40,239 nt of DNA from an uncultured Clostridia bacterium (GTDB taxonomy: Bacteria > Bacillota > Clostridia > TANB77 > CAG-508), in assembly GCA_947624185.1 (NCBI GenBank), contig CANQJG010000003.1:1-40239 (forward strand). Reading direction: 5' to 3'. Positions 26,867 through 33,504 of the stretch are shown in pieces. A model generated the notes under the pieces. It was not told the origin of the DNA and made no database searches. It saw nothing but the letters and a program-made list of their open reading frames with translations. The stretch's first letter is position 1. Every line of letters starts with the position of its first letter. Both the position numbers and the translations under genes were made by a program.

Positions 26867-27066
26867 ATATAATTCTATAAATATAATAGTGTTCGCACCT
26901 TGCTGTCGCAAATTCCATTATGCCTTCATGGCTGTGCAATTAATATACTTTGTGCAATACATAATGCCATTCGGCGCTTGTATGTAATTTGCTTCATTCG
27001 CCCTTCGCTAACGCTCCGGTTGGGCGCTGCGCGGTTGCTTCAACTATTATATTTATAGAATAATAT
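26867..27066 (-). repeat. Interspersed intergenic element, copy A (core 26891..27042, inverted arms 26872..26890 / 27043..27061, extendable to 26867 / 27066 with one mismatch)
   Basis: ~152-nt core near-identical to copies B and C (about 9 differences versus C by eye). Arms ATTCTATAAATATAATAGT / ACTATTATATTTATAGAAT, perfect over 19 bp. Confidence 0.9.
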
Positions 27067-28550: not shown

Positions 28551-28577
28551 GGAATTAATAATTATATTATTAATTCC
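28551..28577. promoter_or_regulatory. Perfect dyad immediately upstream of the polymerase gene
   Basis: GGAATTAATAAT-TAT-ATTATTAATTCC, 12-bp perfect arms. Confidence 0.6.
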
Positions 28578-28582
28578 CAGTT

Positions 28583-28602
28583 GCATTTAATTAATTAAAT
28601 GC
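28583..28602. promoter_or_regulatory. Perfect 20-bp palindrome
   Basis: GCATTTAATTAATTAAATGC, 5 bp from the adjacent dyad. Confidence 0.6.
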
Positions 28603-28624
28603 GATTTATTGTATTTATAATTTT

Positions 28625-29764
28625 CTAGTCTCCTAGACAAATTCCTATATTTCTTGCAGTTTCTACAAGTTCATCATCCATTGTAACTAAACGAACATTG
28701 CTTTCTTTAGTTCCACCTTCAACTGCACCAAGCTCTTTATTATTTCCTACCACATCTTCTAAAGGTACATAATCAAGCTTGCCATTTTTTATAACTGTAA
28801 GCACTCCAAATTTTCCTTCCATTGCAAGCTCCATAGCTTTGGCTCCATATTTTGTTGAAAGCACTCTATCGTAAGCTGTAGGCGTTCCACCCCTTTGCAT
28901 ATAACCAAGTGTTGTGCATCTTGATTCTAGTCCTGTTAATTTTTCTAATTCTTTTGATACTTTGTCTCCAGCTCCTGCAAATTTTACTGCTATTCCTGTT
29001 CCGTCGCTAACATTACTATTTACTGTTGAAGCAGTACCGTCTTTAGGCTGTGCACCTTCTGCCACAACAACAATGCCGAATTGCTTTCCTTTTGCAATCC
29101 TTCTTTGTAAGCTTTGTGCAACTTTATTTATATCATAAGGAATTTCCGGAATAAGTGCAACATCAGCACCACCTGCAATTGCAGACTCTAAGGCAATCCA
29201 GCCTGCATATCTTCCCATAACTTCTAGACACATTATTCTGTGATGAGTTTCAGCAGTCGTATGAAGTCTGTCTATAGCTTCAGAAGCTACTGATACTGCA
29301 GTATTGTATCCAAATGTTATATCAGTACAAGCTACATCATTATCAATTGTTTTTGGAACTCCAATTGTTTTTATCCCTTTGATAAATAAGTCTCTTGCAG
29401 ACTTCTGAGTACTATCTCCACCAAGTGTAAATACACAGTCAAATCCGTCTTTCATTACATTTTGAACACAAAGGTCTGATAAATCTCTGTATTCCACTGT
29501 TCCGTCCGGATTAGTTACTTTGTAATGAAAAACTATTGTATTTGTAGATGAACCAATTATTGATCCACCTTTTGGCAATATTCCGTCAGCCATTGGATTA
29601 AAATCTAATCTTACAAATTTATTTTCAAGAAGTCCCTTATAGCCGTCAATAAATCCATAGCACTCTATTCCATAAACTTCACATGATTTTTTTATGGCTC
29701 TAATAACTGGATTAAGTCCAGCAACATCCCCACCATTTGCTAGTATAGCAACTCTTTTTAACAT
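28625..29764 (-). CDS. pfkA: 6-phosphofructokinase (phosphoryl-donor specificity uncertain)
   Basis: GGDVAGLNPVIRAI; FTLGGDSTQKSARDL; GVPKTIDNDVACTDITFGYNTA; EVMGRYAGWIAL; LGYMQRGGTPTAYDR. Confidence 0.92.
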   Translation of the reverse strand: MLKRVAILANGGDVAGLNPVIRAIKKSCEVYGIECYGFIDGYKGLLENKFVRLDFNPMADGILPKGGSIIGSSTNTIVFHYKVTNPDGTVEYRDLSDLCVQNVMKDGFDCVFTLGGDSTQKSARDLFIKGIKTIGVPKTIDNDVACTDITFGYNTAVSVASEAIDRLHTTAETHHRIMCLEVMGRYAGWIALESAIAGGADVALIPEIPYDINKVAQSLQRRIAKGKQFGIVVVAEGAQPKDGTASTVNSNVSDGTGIAVKFAGAGDKVSKELEKLTGLESRCTTLGYMQRGGTPTAYDRVLSTKYGAKAMELAMEGKFGVLTVIKNGKLDYVPLEDVVGNNKELGAVEGGTKESNVRLVTMDDELVETARNIGICLGD

Positions 29765-29802: not shown

Positions 29803-31365
29803 TTATATTTCTTGATCATCTAAATCTATTTTTTTATCATTTGTTGTTTTCTCTGTATTTTGAATATTTCTTGCCTTTTTATATTCATTATAAATTCTTT
29901 TCCATTTTAATGGATCATATAATTTATTTCTTGTTTGTACTATCCTTAATGCTTTGTTTATTGTATCTAATGCAATTTTGTCTTCTTTCAACTCTTTTTT
30001 ATGTAATTTTAAATATCCTTCTGAGTGTTTATATATTTTTGCTTTAAAAGCCGCTTCTGATTGAACTAATACTTGTAATGTCTCATCTTCTCCTTCTATT
30101 AATTCTTTTATTTCTTCTATTTTATTTAACATATCTTTTGAATCTGATTTTTCTATTAATTTTCTTGCTTTCCCTATTGCATCTAATTCTTTATTTTTTT
30201 CTGTAAAGATTTCTTCAAAGTCATCTTCTGTTTCATCTAATTTTATTGATTCTACTCTTACAATTGGTTCTTTTTTTCTGTCTTTATTTCTTTCTTCTTC
30301 TGCGATACTCCTTAAACTATTCATTGCTTTTACATTGTCAGGTTCTATCTTTAATACTTTTTCTAATAATTCTTTTTCTCTGTCTTTATTTCTTTCTTCT
30401 TTTGCGATTCTTATTAAACTATATATTGTTATTACATTATTAGGCTCTAATTTTAATATTTTTTCTAATAATTCCTTTTCTCGTTTTTTATTTTGCTCTT
30501 CTCTTGCAATTCTTATTAAGCTACTCATTGCTATTGTATTATTAGGCTCTATTTCTAATATTCTTTCTAGTAATTTCTTTTCTTGATCTTTGTTTTGCTC
30601 TCTTCTTGCAATTTTTATTAATCTACCCATTGCTTTTACATTATTAGGCTTTAATTCTAATAATTTCTCCAGTAATTCCTTTTCTCGATTTTTATTTTTT
30701 TCTTCTCTTGCAATTCTTATTAAGCTGCTCATTGCTATTATATTATTAGGCTCTATTTCTAATATTTTTTCTGATAATTCTTTTTCTCGATTTCTATTTT
30801 TTTCTTTCCTTGCTATAATTATTAAATTAATCATCGTTCTTGCATTATCAGGATCTACATTTAATATTTTTTCTAGTAATTCTTTTTCTCGATTTCTATT
30901 TTTCTCTTCTCTTGCAATTTTTGTTAACGTATACATTGCTATTACATTATTAGGCTCTATTTCTAATATTTTTTCTGATAATTCTTTTTCTCGATTCCTA
31001 TTTTTCTCTTTTATTGCTATACCTATTAAACTAATCATTACTTGTACATTGTCATTTTCTACTTTTAATATTTTTTCCAGTAATTCTTTTTCTTCTTCTT
31101 GATTACCTTTTTGTTTTGCTATTAGCATTTCTAAAGATAATATAACAATTCTATTTGATTTTGGGCTTAATTTATTAATTTCTATTCTTGCTTCTTCAAT
31201 GTTTCCTTCTTTTATTAGTCTTTTAGCTTTTTTTCTTATTTCTATTTCTTTTTTCCATTTGTTCAAAGTTGAAATAGATATTTGAGTATCTTTACTTATC
31301 TGTTCTAAGTCTTCATTTGCTTTTATTCTTTCTTCTATCTCATTTTTTACTTTATAAGAATACAT
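29803..31365 (-). CDS. HTH plus tandem TPR-like repeat protein (~8 x 34 aa)
   Basis: N-terminal LEQISKDTQISISTLNKWKKEI HTH; repeats of REKELLEKILEIEPNNVIAMSSLIRIAREEKNKN. Start at MYSYKV with GGGGGA upstream (tracked ORF to 31386). Confidence 0.8.
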   Translation of the reverse strand: MYSYKVKNEIEERIKANEDLEQISKDTQISISTLNKWKKEIEIRKKAKRLIKEGNIEEARIEINKLSPKSNRIVILSLEMLIAKQKGNQEEEKELLEKILKVENDNVQVMISLIGIAIKEKNRNREKELSEKILEIEPNNVIAMYTLTKIAREEKNRNREKELLEKILNVDPDNARTMINLIIIARKEKNRNREKELSEKILEIEPNNIIAMSSLIRIAREEKNKNREKELLEKLLELKPNNVKAMGRLIKIARREQNKDQEKKLLERILEIEPNNTIAMSSLIRIAREEQNKKREKELLEKILKLEPNNVITIYSLIRIAKEERNKDREKELLEKVLKIEPDNVKAMNSLRSIAEEERNKDRKKEPIVRVESIKLDETEDDFEEIFTEKNKELDAIGKARKLIEKSDSKDMLNKIEEIKELIEGEDETLQVLVQSEAAFKAKIYKHSEGYLKLHKKELKEDKIALDTINKALRIVQTRNKLYDPLKWKRIYNEYKKARNIQNTEKTTNDKKIDLDDQEI

Positions 31366-31389
31366 TGAAAATTCCCCCATAGTCATTTA

Positions 31390-32380: not shown

Positions 32381-32580
32381 AAATACATGAAAATAGTTGT
32401 TTTTGAATACGCCGCGCAGCGCCCAACCGGAGCGTTAGCGTAGGGCGAATGAAGCAAATTTCATACAAGCGCCGAATGGCATTATGTAAGCTTTATGAAG
32501 TAAATTAATTGCAAAGCCATGAAGGCATAATGGAATTTGCGACAGCAAGGCATGAAAAAAACAACTATTTCCATGTATTT
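32381..32580 (+). repeat. Interspersed intergenic element, copy B (core 32405..32556, inverted arms 32381..32404 / 32557..32580)
   Basis: Arms AAATACATGAAAATAGTTGTTTTT / AAAAACAACTATTTCCATGTATTT, 23/24 complementary; core homologous to A and C. Confidence 0.9.
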
Positions 32581-33305: not shown

Positions 33306-33504
33306 CAAAATCAAAAAAATATAATAGTTGTAGCAACCGCGCAGCGCCCAACCGAAGCGTTAGCGAAGGGCGAATGAAGCAAATTACATACAAGCGCCGA
33401 ATGGCATTATATATTGCATAAAGTACACTAATTGCATAGCCATGAAGGCATAATGGAATTTGCGACAGCAAGGTGCAAAGACTATTATATTTTTTAAGAT
33501 TTTG
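33306..33504 (+). repeat. Interspersed intergenic element, copy C (core 33329..33480, inverted arms 33306..33328 / 33481..33504)
   Basis: Arms CAAAATCAAAAAAATATAATAGT / ACTATTATATTTTTTAAGATTTTG (perfect inner 15 bp); core homologous to A and B. Confidence 0.9.

Follow-up and report, generated by a model that had tools for sequence, protein, structure and literature searches.

Template switching between short inverted repeats has two documented effects, homogenised arms and an inverted spacer; it is reversible and acts within short evolutionary time (PMC8604942). Perfect stems can likewise arise and persist through it, with no need for the G-U intermediate that is usually assumed (PMC8794818). 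The published cases are single loci with short spacers (PMC8604942, PMC8794818); the search extended to 70 bp, and the inverted spacers comprised only a few bp (PMC8604942). In plastid genomes, close relatives differ by small hairpin-associated inversions, in which a segment flanked by short inverted repeats is flipped; those described in the cited passages are likewise single loci (PMC6342102, PMC6824564). Bacterial MITE-like, REP and ERIC-type repeats are short, non-coding, intergenic, multi-copy and palindromic; as characterised in the passages cited, the terminal repeats of MITEs are conserved, and REPs are palindromes, 20-40 bp long, that belong to a single sequence family (PMC2229807, PMC3733652). 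IS1272, of the IS1182 family with its inverted-repeat-replacing transposition, is a mobile element with inverted repeats that differ between sites; it replaces a target stem-loop, has 16-bp terminal repeats of its own and encodes a transposase (PMC5678879).

The repeat described here shares with the template-switch cases its homogenised arms, double-sided Watson–Crick changes and recurrent spacer inversion. However, it forms a dispersed family, unlike these cases and the plastid inversions, and its spacer is exchanged between sites and spans about 150 bp in the long form, whereas a short spacer is typical of the published cases, although not strictly defining. Like MITEs it is multi-copy, short, non-coding, dispersed and polymorphic in presence between genomes, but its outer repeat is site-specific. 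In contrast to IS1272, it has copy-specific arms and carries no gene. This bacterial family appears to be undescribed, whereas the mutational process that probably underlies it is already known.

Three copies in the window and their relatives

The window, a stretch of 40,239 nucleotides from an uncultured Clostridia bacterium (genome G000), holds three copies of a non-coding interspersed repeat family that consists of a conserved core and a copy-specific stem of about 22-24 bp, formed by the two arms of each copy (Table 1). The window contains the core motif at exactly three places, none being expected by chance (100 shuffles), and the three cores measure 135-137 nt. Positions and arms agree with the original prediction. 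The arms of copy A pair perfectly over 19 bp (26872-26890/27043-27061) and at 96% when extended to 24 nt (26867-26890/27043-27066), those of copy B pair at 23/24, and the inner 15 bp of those of copy C are perfect. The core of copy A is oriented opposite to those of copies B and C, and that of copy C as in its orthologue (L040) in the sister genome G002. Copy B has a core identical to that of another copy elsewhere in the genome (L016), with arms only about 70% alike. Separately, window positions 30166-30975, within an open reading frame on the minus strand (29803-31386), show six register matches of 300 nt that are spaced exactly 102 nt apart, corresponding to protein repeats of 34 residues.

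Table 1. Features of the three repeat copies, in window coordinates
Feature	Position	Strand	Remark
Copy A left arm	26867..26890	.	19 bp perfect inner part 26872-26890
Copy A core, long type, 135 nt	26898..27032	-	GCGCAGCG end on minus strand
Copy A right arm	27043..27066	.	
Copy B left arm AAATACATGAAAATAGTTGTTTTT	about 32381..32404	.	
Copy B core, 137 nt	32414..32550	+	
Copy B right arm AAAAACAACTATTTCCATGTATTT	about 32557..32580	.	
Copy C left arm CAAAATCAAAAAAATATAATAGT	about 33306..33328	.	
Copy C core, 135 nt	33339..33473	+	
Copy C right arm ACTATTATATTTTTTAAGATTTTG	about 33481..33504	.	

More than 30 copies are present in G000, an incomplete assembly of 1.04 Mb (77% complete) from an uncultured bacterium. 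G002, about 97% identical and likewise an incomplete metagenome assembly, holds a similar number (>30), the congener G024 about 25, and a few relatives hold some more. Among the 57 relatives searched, matches were confined to the same genus; the core motif was also seen, by pattern scanning of named genomes, in uncultured Clostridia assemblies named Lapin-NNN, rabbit by name. The core exists in a long form of about 137 nt, a short form of about 92 nt and rarer forms down to about 35 nt.

That the arms vary across copies yet pair within each copy, as the original prediction held, is strongly supported. When arm complementarity over the genomic copies was compared with permuted arm pairs, the mean local pairing score of a copy's own arms was 23.6 in subtype A (35 copies), where cross pairs within the subtype scored 16.3, and 25.4 in subtype B (44 copies), where they scored 16.1. 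The own mean was reached in 0/20,000 permutations in either subtype, in sets of 35 + 44 copies that kept orthologues in; the later pairing and covariation sets were reduced. The subtypes correspond to two consensus types of the inner arm positions, A (..AATATTATAGTT) and B (CATGAATATAGTTATTTTTGAATA). In 40 non-redundant copies, own arms pair at 65-82% and cross pairs at 44-55% over stem positions 15-22, and from position 23 onwards both are at background. The outer arms (positions 15-22) are copy-specific, with cross pairs at background, in contrast to the conserved terminal inverted repeats of MITEs.

Paired changes in the arms, inversion and exchange of the cores

Covariation was scored in 26 distinct subtype B copies, where 20 of the 23 stem pairs have changed on both sides. 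Double changes were found in 76 of 592 cells, against 16.7 expected from shuffles, and 94.8% of arm cells are paired, a share that falls to 80.2% in shuffles and to 47-54% when the arms are slid. One-sided changes account for 3/592 cells, all of them G-U; a further 31/592 cells are unpaired, mostly in the outer eight pairs. Over the first 24 positions of both subtypes there are 908 Watson–Crick pairs, 13 G-U, 3 A-C and 33 other mismatches. Arm pairs shift from A-U to U-A, G-C or C-G with hardly any intermediate. Stepwise compensation is commonly assumed to proceed via G-U (PMC8794818), and the near absence of G-U among the changed pairs therefore argues for copying of the arms at the DNA level rather than for point-by-point compensation under selection. 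Homogenisation of arms by paired changes is also what characterises the template-switch cases. Double changes of the arms could be dated to the split of G000 and G002 at only one locus (L008/L079), which shows two of them (AAAATAGTT/AACTATTTT versus AAGATAATT/AATTATCTT) and is also inverted, with its core replaced.

Comparison of G000 and G002 further revealed frequent inversion. Of 17 orthologous sites, 6 have the core in opposite orientations (L003, L008, L009, L015, L026 and L037) and 11 in the same one, tandem copies matched only to L072 being omitted from this count; two partial copies are also inverted (L063/L133 and L013/L135), giving 8/19 in total. Because the flanks of the compared sites are mostly 95-99% identical, inversion at a third or more of the loci means that flipping is frequent relative to substitution, an argument drawn from two close genomes that are both incomplete metagenome assemblies. 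The L037/L168 pair has one core in common (99% identical, the best paralogue reaching 91%), which lies in opposite orientations between arms that are conserved; the asymmetric letters on the inner side of the arms have flipped with it, which places the inversion breakpoints in the arms. Such spacer inversion between close relatives again recalls the template-switch cases. Relative to co-directional neighbouring genes, core orientation shows no preference (22 against 25). A strand-specific RNA of fixed orientation was ruled out, as the orientation is random and flips.

The cores also move between sites. When non-orthologous long copies are compared, the identity of the cores does not follow that of the arms (r = -0.08 and -0.004), and cores that are 97-100% identical lie in arms of merely average likeness, even across subtypes A and B. 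At three loci the core was replaced while the arms remained fixed (L011/L074, L003/L086 and L008/L079). At the first of these, the arms hardly differ between the two genomes but the cores agree at 91%, and the G000 core is 98.5% identical to that of another G002 copy. The independence of core identity from the arms and this replacement indicate that the core spreads or converts between sites without the arms. Collectively, the observations favour core and arms being separable, the cores exchanged and flipped while the arms stay.

Several variant copies were noted. At the L037 site of G024, a core of another sequence family (GTTACGCGTGGCAACC...GTAAC) lies within its own complementary arms, TCCAATAATCATAGTT/AACTATGATTATTGGA (L164), and at the L012 site of G006 a core of only about 35 nt lies between perfect arms, ACATAAATATGTTATTTT/AAAATAACATATTTATGT (L145). 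The short-core copies L033 (G000:C30), L030 (C76) and L031 (C42) are in tandem and have their outer flanks in common (..AATTATAATTAATCT), so that here the unit was amplified head to tail together with its flank. Half copies in G024 (L109, L110, L111, L113 and L117) and G000 (L035 and L025) retain the GCGCAGCG end and its arm, and lone copies of the opposite end were hardly seen, one remnant being L133. Because single-ended copies seem to retain the GCGCAGCG end, 5' truncation of a retroelement was considered but set aside, plain deletion accounting for L024/L132.

Origin of the arms and alternative readings

Selection on pairing itself, with the arms pairing as the stem in an RNA, terminator-like or otherwise structured, or in single-stranded DNA, and compensatory substitutions keeping that stem closed, is in keeping with the strong covariation of the arms but appears unlikely overall. 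On the core strand, G-U outnumbers A-C by 13 to 3 in the arms and by 10 to 2 in the core stems of the consensus fold, a small excess that gives a weak hint of selection on the single-stranded form of one strand. Copies lie closer to the 3' than to the 5' ends of genes (median 75 vs 137 nt), and in related species apparent canonical terminators stand where G000 has the element, at L017 (G006 and G022) and L012 (G005 and G022). However, wobble intermediates are few for so AT-rich a stem, and the core is oriented at random with respect to transcription and flips within short time. Further, L013 and L016 adjoin an intact terminator, L056 and L063 lie within short operon gaps, and an Rfam scan gave no family match at the gathering threshold, which counts against a pairing-selected RNA. 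The suggestion made at the outset, that compensatory evolution maintains an intrinsic stem, thus holds in so far as the arms appear and disappear together with the element and covary; the near lack of G-U speaks against its compensatory part.

The competing suggestion, that the core is a mobile cassette inserting into the centre of pre-existing AT-rich palindromes, fits the independent movement of cores but is not supported by the empty sites, and we regard it as very unlikely. At the L056 site G002 carries the element, whereas four relatives (G000, G006, G024 and G005) have only short gene spacers and no palindrome; at the L063 site element and palindrome are both absent in three outgroup relatives. 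The empty palindromic sites expected in relatives did not materialise elsewhere either: site-specific arms in empty orthologues did not exceed the level of arms from unrelated copies, barring one ambiguous hairpin. This hairpin, CTTTGCATAAAAATAGTTGTTTTTACGCAAAG, in the G024 orthologue of the L024 site (L139), has 19 nt in common with the G000 left arm and could be a remnant or a precursor. A hairpin of G024 at the L017 site includes part of the core junction (TCATGC) and looks like what was left after the core was lost. Pairing also ends sharply at about 22 positions, and the inner arms are of two consensus types. The palindrome-free empty sites and the control-level arm search imply that pre-existing palindromes are not required, and a target inverted repeat in the empty site, as in IS1272-like transposition, was seen neither at L056 and L063 nor in the arm search.

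The L056 site offers one clear gain, of which recent acquisition in G002 would be the simplest reading. The gained segment is 233 bp long and includes the arms and some AT-rich flank. It joins GATTA...GATAA, with no clear repeat as a target site duplication at this one site, and its arms have no exact second copy in G000 or G002, both incomplete assemblies. The L049 sites were left out as gains since at one of them the neighbouring gene has apparently lost its end in G000, a sign of deletion.

Two dyads in the window had been likened to empty sites. They exist as adjacent AT-rich dyads, perfect or near-perfect (28551-28577 and 28581-28604), 3' of an open reading frame on the minus strand (28625-29764); against the comparison, they have no motif in common with the arms and lie just downstream of the gene end.

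Slightly less probable again is a site-specific recombinase or transposase that treats the core as a cassette, inverting or exchanging it after recognition of its ends, a reading that suits the sharp core edges and the frequency of inversion and replacement but not the inverted segments, which take in asymmetric letters outside the core and so place the breakpoints in the arms and not at the core ends, nor the search of G000, G002 and G024 for a Y1 transposase, the sole family sought, which found none. As these three are the copy-richest genomes, a Y1 transposase was rejected as the motor. PF01797, looked for with REP/RAYT systems in mind, is absent from the same three incomplete assemblies and present in G005 and G006.

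Template switching as the probable source of covariation

Judged from genome comparison, the balance leans modestly towards template switching between the arms, which would homogenise the arms and flip the core, together with ectopic gene conversion, which would homogenise the cores. The polymerase would change template between the two arms during replication, within a hairpin or onto the sister strand, and one arm would be rewritten as the reverse complement of the other, so that the arms stay complementary. Their letters would not be conserved, as nothing visible constrains them. The same strand exchange would invert the core. We infer template switching as the cause because pairing, missing intermediates and inversion would then be covered by one process. 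Ectopic gene conversion or cassette exchange, stopping where homology ends, that is, at the arms, would keep cores alike across the genome, and new copies would enter intergenic sites with their arms included.

In 31 genomes of the genus, no match to SbcD exceeded the curated cut-off; weaker matches, to proteins of about 290-400 residues, occur in 25 of them, and the cut-off is exceeded in 8 of 14 control genomes. The missing match may be a permissive factor, bearing on the tolerance of palindromes, or the cut-off could be too strict for this lineage.

More tentatively, the family might represent a kind of dispersed element in which the terminal inverted repeats are continually rewritten in place from one another instead of being inherited as sequence. 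The arms would then be a site-specific holder for a core that is flipped and swapped, and possibly an orientation switch for neighbouring genes.

When positions covary, this is usually taken to prove that an RNA or DNA structure is functional. In this family, covariation is near-perfect over dozens of natural copies, which also show core inversions, and it seemingly arises from the mutation process itself. The family would thus be a ready-made natural system in which to measure bacterial template switching, and it advises caution against inferring selection from covariation alone.
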